This document shows, in pieces, positions 3,768-10,721 of a stretch of 58,414 bases of DNA. Both the position numbers and the translations under genes were made by a program. The notes below the pieces were generated by a model. The model was given only the letters and a program-made list of their open reading frames with translations. It was not told where the DNA came from and did not search any database. Position 1 is the first letter of the stretch; each line of letters opens with the position of its first letter. Source of the stretch: Blastocatellia bacterium (GTDB taxonomy: Bacteria; Acidobacteriota; Blastocatellia; HR10; J050); contig JALSQX010000052.1 in NCBI GenBank assembly GCA_026985075.1, positions 74,979-133,392 on the forward strand, given 5' to 3'.

Positions 3768-4724
3768 CTATGGTGATGATCGCTTGCGATGTCCATTCGA
3801 TGATTCTGAGTCATCGAGTTTCAATAACGAGAAAACGGCCGACTTGATGACCGGCCAGGTCACGGCCTGTGGCGCATTGTATTCATGGTGAGCAGCTCGA
3901 TCGACGATGATGAGCCGTACGGTGTCGCCACTTTTTCTGGCGGCTTCGGCATATGCTCGACCGTATTCGGGCGGGACGGCTCGATCGTACTTCCCGGTAA
4001 TGAGGATCTGAGGCACGCCGAGCGGCAGGAGTTCGATGGGCGAAGCGTGCCGGTAGCGATCGGGCACCTCATCGGGAGAGCCTCCGAGGAGTTTCGTCAC
4101 CACGCGATCGCCACAGACCGATCGCGCGTGCTGCATGAATCGCCTCAGGTCGCCGGGACCGCCGAGGGCGACCACTCCCTGAACCGGGAGTGGCCGAGGC
4201 GTATAGAGTGCGCTCGTCCGCGGCAACCGATGGCGGGCCGCGACCCACAGGGCCAGATGTCCACCCGACGAATGACCGATGACCACCACGCGATGAAGGT
4301 CGAGATGGTACCTCCCGGCAATCGAGCGAAGATGATCAGTCGCCCGCGCCACATCCTGGAACGTCCCCGGCCATCCTCCTCCGGGATCGTCCAGGCGGCG
4401 ATACTCGATATTCCAGGTGGCAATGCCCGCATCGCGAAGTGCGTCGGCGAGAGCGGCTGTATTCCGCACATCGGCGAATCGAGACAGCCAGCACCCTCCA
4501 TGGATGACGATGGCGACCGGATGCGGTCCCGAACCTTTGGGCAGCCGTAAATCGCCGAATTGAAGTGACCCGCGTCCATAAAAGAGGCGATGGTCGGGCG
4601 GCTTGCTGGGAAGCGCATTGATGTCCGCCGGGGTGAGAAACCGGCGCTGCGCCGGACGCTCCCAGCCGTAGCCCGACAAGAGCGCCATCCCTATAAAGAG
4701 AAGCATCCACCCCCGGCGCTTCAT
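3768..4724 (-). CDS. secreted alpha/beta hydrolase (BD-FAE / carboxylesterase type)
   Basis: The start chosen at 4724 gives 318 residues beginning MKRRGWMLLFIGMALLSG, a short basic n-region plus hydrophobic core typical of a signal peptide or anchor. The mature part shows the oxyanion-hole motif HGGCW, the nucleophile elbow GHSSGGH, an Asp in the 'TGKYDRAVP' segment and a late His (AAHHEYN), completing a Ser-Asp-His triad. The family hydrolyses carboxylic esters. In-frame ATGs at 4769 and further upstream (to 4895) exist, but the longer leaders are Arg/Asp-rich and would bury the signal peptide. No start has a clear ribosome site. Substrate unknown. Confidence 0.75.
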   Translation of the reverse strand: MKRRGWMLLFIGMALLSGYGWERPAQRRFLTPADINALPSKPPDHRLFYGRGSLQFGDLRLPKGSGPHPVAIVIHGGCWLSRFADVRNTAALADALRDAGIATWNIEYRRLDDPGGGWPGTFQDVARATDHLRSIAGRYHLDLHRVVVIGHSSGGHLALWVAARHRLPRTSALYTPRPLPVQGVVALGGPGDLRRFMQHARSVCGDRVVTKLLGGSPDEVPDRYRHASPIELLPLGVPQILITGKYDRAVPPEYGRAYAEAARKSGDTVRLIIVDRAAHHEYNAPQAVTWPVIKSAVFSLLKLDDSESSNGHRKRSSP

Positions 4725-4949
4725 CTTTTGAGGCTTCGCGGGAAGCGGATTCGCATTCAGACCATACATTGCCATCACCATGGAGCGCACCGACGAATCC
4801 TCAATGCCATTTCTCGGAGCGCCTTCATCGTCCCTTGAAGGAGTCGCTTCATCGACCTCCCTTCTCCGCCGCGGATCGCCTCTCGGACTGAGCACGCGTC
4901 CCGCCCTGATGGGTCGTACGTCAAGCGGTCACTCCGAGAGAGCGCGCGT

Positions 4950-7736
4950 CTATTTCGGTGGCGATAACTCGGCCAGTCGCTTCAACGCTTCGAGCGATTC
5001 CCGGGACCAGCCGCCATGAATCTCGCGGACGATCCCATGCTCATCGATGATGAATGAAAGCGGAATGAACACTTCATCGGTCGCATAGATGTGACGGATG
5101 GCACTACTGGCCGCCAGATAAACCGGATAGTGGATGCCTCGTTGCTTGAGAAATCTCTTCACCACCTCGGGTCCGGCCGTATCCAAGCTGAGACCGATGA
5201 TCTCCATATTGTGTGCCCGAAAGCGCGCCGAGAGGCGCTGGAGTTCGGGCATCTCCGTCGCACAGGGAATGCAGTACGTCGCCCACAGATTAATGAGATA
5301 ACGATGTCCTGAAGTGAGGAGATCCCGCAATCGTTTCGATTCGTTGTTCAGGGACGAAATGGCGAGATCGGGAAATGGCGCTCCGATCCTCACCTTCAAT
5401 TTGCTCAGGAATACGTCTCGCTCGGGGAGTGGATCGGGGAGATGGAATCGCGATTCGGTGAGGCGTTCATACGTCTGATGTCCCTCGACGATTCGAATGG
5501 ATAGTCCCGCCGGAATGCGCTCGAAGCGCTGTGTCCGTCCCGATGGCCAGATCACCTCGACCCACTCGGCTCGCGCGTCACGACCCAGTCCGAATATCAG
5601 CCGTGGATCGTGTTGAGCGAGATATCCGGCACCGCCCGACTTCACCTTGGTGAGAATCCCTGCCGAGGTTTTGACGCGCACGATGGCCCCATAGGCGTCC
5701 TTCCCGCTCTCCGTGCCCTGGAGCGAGATGCGGAGGAAGGCATTCTCCTGACCCACGTTGTTTCGGAACAAGAGATGACTCGTCCCTTGAATCGTGGTGA
5801 GGAAGACATCGAGATCGCCATCATTATCGAAGTCGGCGAAGACGGCCCCACGCCCGTCGGTGATGGAATCGATGCCCGAAACTCCCGAGATGTCCAGGAA
5901 CGCTTTCGTTCCGAGATTGAGGTACAAGCCATCTCGTTCGTACCCGCTGAACGAGAAGCCCTCCTGAAAGATCTTGCGCATATGCTCGTTCTGATACTGC
6001 TCATTGCCGGCCTTTTCCACGCCCGCTTTGGACGCCACCACGTGGCGCCAGAAGAACGATCAGGTATCCTTCATCGACTTCCCCGAGATGAATCCATTGG
6101 GCGTGTAGATATCTTCCCACCCATCGTTATCGAAATCGATGAATCCACCGCCCCAGGCCCAACCACCGGGGAAGCCCCCTGCCGCCGCTGTCACATTCTT
6201 GAACGTTCCCTGGCCCGAGTTCTCGTAGAGGCTACTGCCGGACGCGAGCTTGGCGAGCACGTTGTCTCCTCGGTGCGATGTGGGGAACAGGCGATGGAGA
6301 ATCCGTTGACCCGCCGTCGACGACATATTGGTGACGAACAGATCCAGATCGCCGTCATTATCATAGTCGCCGAACGAGACGCCCATCCCATTCCCCGGAT
6401 CGAGCACGCCACGCGCTCTGGCTCGATCGACAAAGTGGTCGCCCATGTTGATGTACAATCCGTTCTCGCCGAAATCATTAGCCACGTAGAGATCCTGATC
6501 GCCGTCGCCATCGACATCCACGAATTGCGCCGCATAACTCCACCGCGTATCGGCAACGCCGAGTGCTCGCGCCATTTCTTTGAAGCGACCGCCCCCTTGA
6601 TTGACGAAGAGCAAATTCGGCGTCCCATTGGTCGCCCGATACCAGGAATTGGGCATCACCTGTCCGTATCGATTGTAAGAGGTGACGTAGATGTCCGGAC
6701 GCCCATCGCCATTGACATCTCCGGCCACAGCACTGAACCCGATGGCCGGAACGGCGACGCCCGACTCCAATGAAATATCGAGAAAAGCGAGATCTCCATC
6801 GGGGATGAGCCGATTCTCCAACAGCATCTGATTCCCTACTGCCGAGATGAACAGATCGGGATCGCCATCGTTATCATAATCGAGAAACAGTGGTGCCACG
6901 CCTTCTTCCGGCAGGTAGGTGACGCCCACGTCGGCCGGAGCTTCGTGGAAACGCCCATTTCCGTCATTGAGGTAGAGGTGATTCTCCATGGCGCCGGTGG
7001 CGAACACGTCGATATCTCCATCCAGGTCCACGTCAGCAGCGGCCGCGCCATGCCACACGAATCCCTCGTTGCCCGGCGATCCATAGGCGGGAATCCTCAG
7101 CGACACCCCTGCCGGCACGCTGACCTCGGAGAAAAGATCTCGAGTCGCGACGAGCGAGCTGATCTGTTTCACCACGAACTCCGTCATCACCCAGGTCCGA
7201 CTCCCGACGTTCGCCCCTCGGCCGGATCGATGAGCCCCGATCGTAGCATAACCGCGGACCCACTCGCGATGACCCTGCCGGTCCCTCCCGACGACGAAGA
7301 AGAAGACGCGCGCTCGCCCCACCCGCGGCGTCTCAAAACGCGCCATTTTCACCTTGAACCGCACATCCTCGATCGTCGAGAAATGGTCGAGAAAAGCCAT
7401 CCAATCTCTGAGGAAGACTTGACGCGAAAGCCGGCGAGGGTCCTTTTGAACGACCCAGCCATGGGATCGAATCCACTTGACGTCGGAGCGGAGGGGCGTG
7501 GCTCGCGTCGGCAGAGGAATCGCCCGCAGCGAATCGGCGAAGAACGTCGAGATGCGCGCCACGTCTCGCTGACGGACGGCGACGGAGAAGTCCAGTAGAT
7601 CATCGGCGAGCGATTCGGATAACTCCTCCACCGTATCCAGAGCCTTTCGGTCGAAGCGCGTCTGAGATACTCCGACGACGGCTCCCGCCATGAAAACGAT
7701 GAGTCCAATGAGAACCAGTGACGTCGCTTCCCTCAT
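4950..7736 (-). CDS. CRTAC1-type FG-GAP/ASPIC-UnbV protein with TlpA-like thioredoxin domain; candidate selenoprotein (in-frame UGA, codon 559)
   Basis: A single reading frame of 928 codons is interrupted once, by TGA at 6062-6060. On both sides the protein makes sense. It begins with a signal anchor (residues 1-25) and a DUF-like region to about 200. FG-GAP/VCBS repeats with Asp-rich calcium loops (DxDxDGDxD type) follow at about 215-555, then KDT-UGA-SFFWRHVV, one more FG-GAP repeat, and an ASPIC/UnbV domain (about 660-755, with 'WPSGRTQRF'). The C-terminus is a TlpA/redoxin domain with CIPC at 822-825. The TGA falls inside the conserved 'GFISGKSMKD-x-SFFWR' segment, so two separate genes would cut a domain in half. 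A SECIS-like hairpin follows the TGA. The alternative is a point mutation or assembly error turning a Cys or Trp codon into TGA. The product is likely exported; function unknown. Confidence 0.75.
6031..6062 (-). promoter_or_regulatory. candidate bacterial SECIS element with UGA (CRTAC1-TlpA gene)
   Basis: The UGA is at 6062-6060. An 8-bp stem, GGCGCCAC (6049-6042) with GUGGCGUC (6038-6031), closes a GUG loop (6041-6039) and contains one G-U pair. Eighteen nucleotides separate the UGA from the loop, and the loop starts with G. Both properties fit published descriptions of bacterial SECIS elements (short apical stem, G early in the loop, about 16-37 nt from the codon). The hairpin also encodes the conserved FWRHVVAS residues, so some of its base pairing could be accidental. 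Confidence 0.55.
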
Positions 7737-7836: not shown

Positions 7837-9321
7837 TCACCGCTCCCCTCTTCCATCCCATCGCGGGGCCACCAGTCGCCGGCGACCATCATCGGAGAGC
7901 GGCACTCCCGGCTCATCCAGATCGACGCGATCCCACAACTTGCACGTCACCGGTTTATGCATCTGATCGAGACCCTCACAATAGTTGGTGAACGTGCACC
8001 GACGAATCTCATTGCCCCGGCCCAGGCGCATCTTCAAAAACCAATCGGGATCAGCCAGCGTCTGTCGCGCCGCGCCAATGATGTCGGCCTCCCCTCGCCG
8101 CAAGATCCCTTCGGCCTGATCAAAAGTGCAAATGCCGCCCGACGTCACCACCGGCGTTGTGTAGCCGGCGGCATTCACCGCTCGCTTGATGGCGGCGGCT
8201 AACGGCACGTTGCGCCCGAACGGACCTCGCTCATCGGAGAGGACCGTGGGCATGCATTCGTATCCGCTCCGTCCCGTATAGGGATAGACGGCTTGGCCCA
8301 CCTTCGGCTGCTTGGCGTCTTCGAACTTTCCGCCCTTGGTGACGGAGAGGTAATCGAATCCAGCCCGGGCAAACTCTACGCCGAAATAGACGGCATCGTC
8401 CAATCGACTCCCTCCTTCAATCACCTCATCGCCGAGGAAGCGCACGCCCACGACATAATCTGATCCCACCCGCTCGCGCACCGCATGATAGACCTCCAGC
8501 GGCAGTCGAATGCGATGTGCACGCGGTCCCCCATAGCCATCGGTGCGCGTATTGAGCGCACTCAAGAAGCCCGCCATAGTGTAGGCATGGGCATAGTGCA
8601 ACTCGACGCCGTCGAAACCCGCTTCCCGCGCCCGCCAGGCCGCGGCGGCGAAAATCTCCGGCAGCACTTTGGGGAGATCGCGAATATGTGGAAGGTGCAC
8701 ATCGGTCACCCGCTCGCGATAGCCGTAGCGCAACGTCTCCAGTTCCCGTTCATCCAACACGCGATCGTGCACCTCGTCGGCGGCCAGTTTGAGGAAGGCG
8801 CGCACCTCAGCGTCATCGACGTTCAACCACCGTTCATCCCCGGTGAGCTCAACCAGCGCCCGGCGATGCCGCTCGTTCACGGTGAAGAATCGCTCGAAGT
8901 ATTTTTCCTTGGACACGCGTCGCTTCACGGTGAGAAAGTCGATGAGTTGAATGAACAGGCGCGTGTGCCCGTCGCTCTGCCGCCGCACGGTCTCGACCAG
9001 TTGACGCAATCCCGGGATGAACCGATCGTGCCCGATGCGCAACAGCGGTCCACTTTTGATATCGCGCACGCCGGTGGCTTCCACGACGATGGCCCCCGGT
9101 CGCCCGGCAGCGAATCGCGCATACCAATCGAGGATGTTCCGGGTCACATACCCTTCTTCAGTGGCTCGCCAGGGCACCATGGCCGGCACCCACGTACGAC
9201 TCTCCAGCCAGATCGGACCAATCCGGATGGGCGTGAAGAGGAGAGCGCGCTCGGCCTCCTGGCGCGTCGGCCAACGGGCCTGTGGAAGTCTATGTCGAAT
9301 GGGATTCTCAGGATGCCACAT
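7837..9321 (-). CDS. Old Yellow Enzyme-family NADH:flavin oxidoreductase
   Basis: The 494-residue product is an FMN TIM-barrel of the OYE/2,4-dienoyl-CoA reductase class. Near the N-terminus it has TPIRIGPIWLESRTWVPAM, in the barrel it has DGVELHYAHAYTMAGFLSALNTRTDGYGG, and near the end 'VVTSGGICTFDQAEGILRRGEADIIGAARQTLADPDW', the usual FMN phosphate-binding segment. Cys-containing motifs late in the chain (RRCTFTNYCEGL) resemble the iron-sulfur-type arrangement of dienoyl-CoA reductases but are incomplete. The C-terminal flavin/NAD domain of that longer class is absent. It probably reduces an activated double bond of a ring or enone intermediate. ATG 9321 is taken; a TTG four codons upstream is possible. 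Confidence 0.8.
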   Translation of the reverse strand: MWHPENPIRHRLPQARWPTRQEAERALLFTPIRIGPIWLESRTWVPAMVPWRATEEGYVTRNILDWYARFAAGRPGAIVVEATGVRDIKSGPLLRIGHDRFIPGLRQLVETVRRQSDGHTRLFIQLIDFLTVKRRVSKEKYFERFFTVNERHRRALVELTGDERWLNVDDAEVRAFLKLAADEVHDRVLDERELETLRYGYRERVTDVHLPHIRDLPKVLPEIFAAAAWRAREAGFDGVELHYAHAYTMAGFLSALNTRTDGYGGPRAHRIRLPLEVYHAVRERVGSDYVVGVRFLGDEVIEGGSRLDDAVYFGVEFARAGFDYLSVTKGGKFEDAKQPKVGQAVYPYTGRSGYECMPTVLSDERGPFGRNVPLAAAIKRAVNAAGYTTPVVTSGGICTFDQAEGILRRGEADIIGAARQTLADPDWFLKMRLGRGNEIRRCTFTNYCEGLDQMHKPVTCKLWDRVDLDEPGVPLSDDGRRRLVAPRWDGRGER

Positions 9322-9422
9322 CGCCGAGATCAAAGCGTAACCCGGAAGAGGAGACCTGGGAAGGGCAGACCGTCAAACATGACCAAGGGGACGCGAGCAT
9401 GCTCGTCAACTGCTCTGACCGA

Positions 9423-10721
9423 TCAGCTCGTGAAGAAATCCCACCACCCATAAGAGAGAACGAGGAGGACGAAAACGGGGATGACATAGCGAATCCAAAC
9501 GATCCACCATTCGGGAACCGGGGCCGAGGAATTCTTCTTCACCTCAGCTAATGCCGTACTCCGGGAAACGCACCATCCCAATCCCAACAGAGCCATGGCA
9601 TTACCGAATGGAAACAGGGTCGTCACCCAGAGGAGATCGTTGAACTGAACGATCTCGGGCGAAAACAGCGACGGGATCGCCGCCACCAGGAGTCCCAGCG
9701 CGATGAGGGGAAGCGCTCGACGGCGCGACCAGTTCCAGTAGTATCGACAAGCATCGTACAACACTTCAAAGCTGTTGATGAGCGAGGTGAATCCGGCCAC
9801 GAAAACGGCGAGGAAAAATAATACGCCCACGCCCCATCCCATGGGCATCTCGCTGAACACGCGGGGCAAGGTCACGAACGTGAGTCCCGGTCCACTCTCC
9901 GGATTGAATCCGTAAGCGAAGACGGCGGGGAAGATGGCCACGCCGGCCAGAACGCCAGCCAGAGTATCTCCCAAAGCCGTCTTGGCCGCCGTCCAGGGTA
10001 TATCTTCGCTCTCGGCGAGGTAGCTCCCATAAAGGAGCAATCCATGCCCGCCCAGCGCCAGAGAGAAGAACGCCTGACCCAATGCCGCCAGGATCACCTG
10101 GGGACGCAACTTGGACACATCGGGGATGAGAAGGAAGGCCAATCCTTCGGACGATCCGGACAACGTCAAGCTCCGCACCATGATGGGGATGAAACAGAGA
10201 AACAAGAGCGGCACCAACACGCGATTCAACCACTCGATGCCTTTCTGCACCCCTCGAGCGACTACCACGCCCTCAAGCACAGCGACCAGCGCGGCGATGC
10301 CCAGCGAGAGCCAATGAAATCCCTGGAAGTGCGCCTGAAAGTAGGCTCCTGTGTCCGTCCCGAAATACGTCCGCCCGATGCTCGCCCCGAGATAAAAGAA
10401 CGTCCATCCCACCACGACGAGATAGAATCCCGACGCCATCAGCAGCGTGAAACAGAGAAGGCCGCCGATGAAGCGACCCCGAGGCATGCCAATCTTTTGA
10501 TAGGCTCCCGCCGGCCCCTCTCGTGCATACCGTCCCAGCGTCAGTTCGGCCATGATAGCCGGGACGCCCACCAATCCCACGATGGCCAGATAGATGATCA
10601 AGAATGCCCCGCCCCCGAAGAGCCCCGCCATGTAGGGGAATCGCCAGATATTCCCCAAGCCGATGGCCAGCCCAATGAGTGCCATCAGCGAACCGAATCG
10701 CGTTCTGAACGTCTCACGCAT
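9423..10721 (-). CDS. sodium-dependent transporter of the NSS/SNF family
   Basis: The 432-residue integral membrane protein begins with the NSS signature GSLMALIGLAIGLGNIWRFPYMAG, the unwound TM1 that binds Na+ and substrate. It continues through about eleven or twelve hydrophobic segments. NSS members such as LeuT and MhsT import amino acids or similar amines with sodium; the substrate here cannot be stated. The length is slightly short for the family (usually 440-520). The gene precedes an Old Yellow Enzyme gene by about 100 nt and follows a thioesterase gene by 59 nt, so co-transcription is likely. Confidence 0.9.
   Translation of the reverse strand: MRETFRTRFGSLMALIGLAIGLGNIWRFPYMAGLFGGGAFLIIYLAIVGLVGVPAIMAELTLGRYAREGPAGAYQKIGMPRGRFIGGLLCFTLLMASGFYLVVVGWTFFYLGASIGRTYFGTDTGAYFQAHFQGFHWLSLGIAALVAVLEGVVVARGVQKGIEWLNRVLVPLLFLCFIPIMVRSLTLSGSSEGLAFLLIPDVSKLRPQVILAALGQAFFSLALGGHGLLLYGSYLAESEDIPWTAAKTALGDTLAGVLAGVAIFPAVFAYGFNPESGPGLTFVTLPRVFSEMPMGWGVGVLFFLAVFVAGFTSLINSFEVLYDACRYYWNWSRRRALPLIALGLLVAAIPSLFSPEIVQFNDLLWVTTLFPFGNAMALLGLGWCVSRSTALAEVKKNSSAPVPEWWIVWIRYVIPVFVLLVLSYGWWDFFTS

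Follow-up and report, generated by a model that had tools for sequence, protein, structure and literature searches.

The window, a 58,414-nucleotide stretch of DNA from a soil bacterium, contains a gene that on all the sequence evidence would encode a whole exported selenoprotein and not the remains of a broken gene. We consider it quite likely that the product is an exported selenoenzyme built on a CRTAC1-type propeller, with selenocysteine (Sec) at the N-terminus of a helix and recycled by the CxxC motif of its own TlpA domain. An earlier sequence-only reading of the same DNA had described a 928-codon frame divided by a single TGA, and translation with TGA read as Sec bears this out. The strand, which that reading left unstated, is minus, so that the gene runs from 7736 to 4950, with codon 559 as its sole in-frame UGA. 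The residues that it gave around the codon (SMKD-UGA-SFFWR) are right except for an omitted threonine, the correct context being SMKDT-U-SFFWR, and the FG-GAP repeats, UnbV domain and C-terminal thioredoxin-like domain with CIPC were all recovered by Pfam or in the translation (Table 1). In the predicted structure of the full-length protein (pLDDT 88.4, pTM 0.87), Sec559 opens a helix that spans residues 559-569.

Table 1. Features of the proposed selenoprotein gene and its neighbours in the window
Feature	Positions	Strand	Basis
Complete selenoprotein gene (predicted)	4950..7736	-	928 residues, Sec at 559, stop TAG; translation with TGA=U and orthologues
Proposed Sec codon 559 (in-frame UGA)	6060..6062	-	Column shared by 80 distinct genes plus 17 more from Planctomycetota
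SECIS-like hairpin GGCGCCAC-GUG-GUGGCGUC	6031..6049	-	Loop begins 18 nt after UGA; family conservation and covariation
Hydrophobic N-terminal stretch (residues 1-24), probably a signal peptide	7665..7736	-	Sequence MREATSLVLIGLIVFMAGAVVGVS; predicted helix 2-17
NTF2/ketosteroid-isomerase-like domain (residues 30-197)	7146..7649	-	AlphaFold2 pLDDT 93; 3hx8 is the top Foldseek match (E 1.2e-5)
FG-GAP beta-propeller (residues 199-665), holds Sec segment	5742..7142	-	Pfam FG-GAP_3; model pLDDT 88; 9etn Z 44
UnbV_ASPIC domain (residues 681-744)	5505..5696	-	Pfam PF07593, 59 bits, cut-off 23.4
TlpA/ResA-type redoxin domain (residues 784-905)	5022..5387	-	Pfam AhpC-TSA 62.8 bits; Foldseek ResA/TlpA structures
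CIPC motif (C822 and C825), putative thiol partner of Sec559	5262..5273	-	CxxC kept with Sec, mostly lost without
Upstream genes: FMN NADH:flavin oxidoreductase; Na+:neurotransmitter-type symporter	7837..9333; 9423..10721		
Downstream gene: alpha/beta hydrolase	3768..4895	-	

The UGA codon, its hairpin and the selenium machinery

Several lines of evidence suggest that the UGA is a conserved sense codon. A search of 58 related genomes returned five further full-length genes, 56-90% identical and with one TGA each, and these share the segment GKSMxDT-U-SxFWR with the window gene. Scanning genome contigs and searching 396 genomes of the host phylum with a profile enlarged the set of homologues. 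Across the resulting 129 distinct genes, the homologous column holds UGA in 80, E in 14, N in 6, S and W in 5 each, A in 4, G, D and P in 3 each, M in 2, and Q, T, I and C in one each. Among 294 genomes from the phylum of a planctomycete carrier we found 20 loci, all 20 with UGA at this column, 17 of these genes being new as judged by genome handle. In total, about 97 distinct genes carry the UGA, all at exactly the same column. The carriers belong to phyla that include Acidobacteriota, Planctomycetota, Verrucomicrobiota, Gemmatimonadota and Myxococcota; most are metagenome assemblies, and the single-contig genomes G151, G238 and G262 are among them.

The aligned core of the first 80 UGA genes comprises 45,672 codons without a second in-frame UGA, which together with the shared column places the pattern far beyond chance. 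Among ORFs of at least 200 codons here, UGA is also the most frequent normal stop (26 of 36, the first half of this frame included), and thus the genetic code has not been reassigned. Relative to a congener, dN/dS is 0.118 before the UGA and 0.129 after it. On a 122-row tree built with the column itself excluded, presence of UGA changes 7 times, against a mean of 35.5 for shuffled labels. Furthermore, every UGA member has E600 and D627, which are present in 69% and 80%, respectively, of the remaining sequences. Judged by such comparisons, the entire frame, on both sides of the UGA, is under selection. One locus (L215) has two extra in-frame TGAs 21 and 25 codons after the Sec codon, which could reflect a local error or something else.

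The previously noticed 8-bp hairpin, the GUG loop of which starts 18 nt behind the codon, is present and, for this gene alone, is stronger than expected from synonymous-codon shuffles (p = 0.024). We compared 66 UGA genes that are less than 80% identical with 35 non-UGA genes and with control windows from the same UGA genes. A stem of at least 4 bp, at a spacing of 17-21 and with a G-bearing loop (usually GGUC, GGUCG, GUG or GUC), occurs in 64 of the 66. The mean stem is 5.97 bp in UGA genes (z 2.32 against synonymous shuffles), 3.09 bp in non-UGA genes (z 0.29) and 1.28 bp in the control windows (z -0.04). In UGA genes of the FWR[QH]VV type, nucleotide 15 after the UGA, the wobble position of an Arg codon, and nucleotide 25, the first position of a codon further on, form a canonical pair in 36 of 36 cases and in five pair types; the same pair is canonical in 6 of 18 non-UGA genes of that type. 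The covariation score is 0.225 compared with 0.079 for shuffled alignments, none of 500 shuffles scored as high, and no slid register reaches this value. This position-specific test separates UGA from non-UGA genes, unlike a general minimum free energy z-score over the 48 nt after the UGA, which separates them poorly (Mann-Whitney p 0.08). By a strict score a few UGA members (L072 and one L078 gene) have almost no hairpin. On this comparative evidence the hairpin, with its clean covariation, is more conserved than the coding sequence requires, and it is mostly lost in homologues that lack the UGA. A hairpin of 8-9 bp, perhaps left over from a SECIS, persists at almost the same spacing in two Asn members (L064 and L073). 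The family hairpins resemble the SECIS element of Escherichia coli fdhF in their spacer, about 17-20 nt long, and in an apical loop of the GGUC type; a search for Rfam matches at the UGA and hairpin returned none.

The machinery for Sec, the absence of which would have counted heavily against this proposal, is complete in the host: a tRNA-Sec, SelB (371 bits), SelA (577 bits) and SelD (369 bits). The SelD gene has its own in-frame TGA, within GAGUACK, and a known selenoprotein is therefore expected in the same genome. The contig loci with UGA led to 24 genomes, each of which has selA (one as a fragment), and selA or selB is present in all 31 UGA-member genomes checked, that is, these 24, the host and six relatives. 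In the congener G001, selB was found and no selA was detected in its 480 contigs. Neither gene was found in 4 of 15 genomes with a non-UGA homologue. As selA exceeds the cut-off in 53 of 58 close relatives of the window genome, its presence among them is uninformative. Thus, a conserved UGA, a computationally supported hairpin behind it within the coding sequence and Sec machinery, as expected of a bacterial selenoprotein, are all found. Together with the hairpin covariation, these features suggest that SelB and tRNA-Sec, recruited by a hairpin that starts about 10 nt after the UGA, would insert Sec at position 559, and we regard the presence of Sec there as nearly certain.

Two other readings of the UGA can be weighed against this evidence. 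A sequencing error or pseudogene might be suspected on the ground that the host assembly is a 105-contig draft, but the UGA recurs in a 90% identical congener and in some 95 further genes, and dN/dS downstream of it is 0.13; the conserved column refutes this reading, and we give it practically no weight. Readthrough without Sec, by near-cognate insertion of Trp, Cys or another residue, or a regulated stop that yields a short and a long product, is very improbable. A short product of 558 residues would contain most of the propeller, which makes a regulated stop conceivable; nevertheless, the conserved, covarying SECIS-type hairpin at bacterial spacing, the full Sec machinery and Sec-containing SelD of the same genome, and the occurrence of selA or selB in 31 of 31 UGA genomes argue for Sec.

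Loss of Sec and the fused redoxin domain

Cysteine, which would be looked for at position 559 in homologues, is nearly absent, being found in 1 of 49 non-UGA genes. The sole case is L196:651-2972 (STADY-C-TTFWRHD). Elsewhere Sec is replaced by residues that include S, N, E, A, G, D, M and Q. Replacement by residues other than Cys is unusual for a catalytic Sec and counts against the explanation that we consider the best; Cys homologues are a usual, though not a defining, criterion in selenoprotein searches, and this family scarcely offers them. The sequence-only reading had also held that random residues at this position would speak against Sec. The residue does vary in some homologues, but these are separate clades, which mostly lack both the SECIS hairpin and the CxxC, and the variation is thus better understood as loss after the fact than as a refutation.

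The CxxC motif is intact in 60 of 60 UGA proteins with a redoxin domain and in 2 of 21 non-UGA proteins with this domain. In the other 19, one or both cysteines are gone in varied ways (S..C, A..C, A..S, V..S, L..C and others). CxxC is also found in 16 of the 17 new Planctomycetota genes, L215 being cut by its further TGAs. The redoxin domain is missing from 20 of the 80 UGA genes; the earlier proposal of a TlpA-fused CRTAC1 family stands for the other 60, and the family extends to members without TlpA and to far more than one gene. Only two losses of Sec among the redoxin-bearing sequences lie behind the non-UGA side, so that testing Sec against CxxC with phylogenetically independent pairs leaves 2 pairs and no power, and the association lacks independent phylogenetic significance; we accordingly regard it as suggestive. 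The varied later decay of CxxC is the better argument. Comparison shows that the UGA, the hairpin and, where fused, the CxxC are retained together.

We propose the following mechanism. The protein would be exported, and Sec559, at the start of its helix, would probably be a redox-active selenol of the propeller that reacts with an oxidized extracytoplasmic substrate. Based on the joint retention and decay described above, Sec559 would then be reduced again by C822/C825 of the fused TlpA domain, these cysteines presumably being supplied by a membrane thiol donor. We favor this redox pairing with some reserve. About 60 of the 80 UGA genes would have such a fused reductant, and the others would need a separate one in trans, among them members of tandem pairs with LPFxSGAVAH-type motifs. 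The earlier suggestion of an exported, TlpA-fused, Sec-containing CRTAC1 family is supported by the comparative evidence. Three members without Sec (L059, L064 and L067) have N-termini with RR that look like Tat signals by eye.

The chief rival to this mechanism is a nonredox role, in which the inserted Sec would bind a metal or act as another kind of binding residue of the propeller, without redox turnover, and the TlpA domain would do a separate job. The propeller is rich in DxDxDG-type motifs, the replacements of Sec include E, D, N and S, a quarter of the UGA members (20 of 80) lack the redoxin domain, and we found no conserved Cys in the propeller that could act as a partner, all of which would suit a binding site. 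The reactive residue of thiol redox sites lies at a helix N-terminus, however, and Sec559 is placed in the same way; moreover, among domain-bearing proteins the CxxC is kept in 60 of 60 with Sec and decayed in 19 of 21 without it. We therefore think a nonredox role unlikely, if still deserving of attention, and prefer a redox-active Sec.

Apart from a second UnbV-type protein at some loci, no partner is conserved in the neighborhoods of the genes in the window subfamily; the genes that flank the window gene are given in Table 1. Tandem pairs of UGA members occur at L062, L071 and L075, and also at L186, where the tandem pair alone was seen. The first three loci have common neighbors, assigned by Pfam on L071: HMG-CoA reductase, an FAD amine-oxidase-type oxidoreductase, an acyltransferase-type protein and an ABC1 kinase. 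Downstream of the Sec gene at L048, L050, L054 and L020 lies the gene for another conserved protein, which where complete has about 1,140-1,240 amino acids; it has no UGA in its frame and resembles CRTAC1-like ORFs.

Novelty and relation to known systems

A May 2026 inventory lists 119 prokaryotic selenoprotein families (PMC13188914), and its Table 1 has no entry for a CRTAC1, UnbV or FG-GAP family, consistent with the earlier reading, which knew of no established CRTAC1 selenoprotein. The families of Haft and Gwadz (2023) and Haft and Tolstoy (2025) were compared by way of this inventory. A full-text literature search, with subscription papers outside its coverage, returned no published account of a Sec-containing CRTAC1/UnbV protein. 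Published methods based on Cys/Sec pairs require Cys homologues, and the authors of deep-Sep concede that their own method may miss families that lack them (PMC12013277); the near-absence of Cys homologues fits with such methods having overlooked this family. By all the comparisons made here, these proteins are a new selenoprotein family, in which the predicted Sec sits on the propeller and is not replaced by Cys. We lean towards a broader proposal, namely that they represent a large undescribed class of selenoenzymes with a reactive Sec on a propeller, a fused TlpA reductant and a Sec that is not exchangeable for Cys, in which the site and the CxxC drift once Sec is lost, and which is widespread in Acidobacteriota, Planctomycetota and Verrucomicrobiota. 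The family would add to the selenoproteins an FG-GAP propeller, a fold not found in the published inventory, and it is common in phyla known mainly from uncultured members. It also illustrates that families without Cys homologues can slip past Cys/Sec-pair searches and that such genes are readily annotated as truncated or as two ORFs, and it offers a testable chemical role for part of the otherwise uncharacterized bacterial CRTAC1/UnbV proteins.

The FG-GAP propeller and UnbV_ASPIC domain place the window protein in the CRTAC1/ASPIC-UnbV family (PF13517, PF07593), with which it has the UnbV domain in common; among NCBIfam models, none matched the propeller part. Murine CRTAC1 (PDB 9etn) has the same propeller fold, matching residues 199-753 with Z 44 over 451 residues at 2.3 A, but its HMM alignment passes over profile positions 480-603, where Sec lies. 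The bacterial members described here differ from CRTAC1 in the addition of the UGA, and presumably Sec, and of fused NTF2-like and TlpA domains. The C-terminal domain, and this domain only, has the thioredoxin-like fold and CxxC of the TlpA/ResA thiol-disulfide oxidoreductases. In contrast to these proteins, the domain is here part of a fusion, and Sec would lie outside its active site, about 260 residues upstream and in another domain. The selenoproteins of NF041054 (WAxxUGC_long) and other UGC-containing TlpA proteins are likewise TlpA-like and selenium-dependent. The window protein scores 48.6 bits against NF041054, the cut-off of which is 300, and falls outside that family; those proteins have Sec inside the TlpA motif itself, whereas the motif of the window protein is CIPC.
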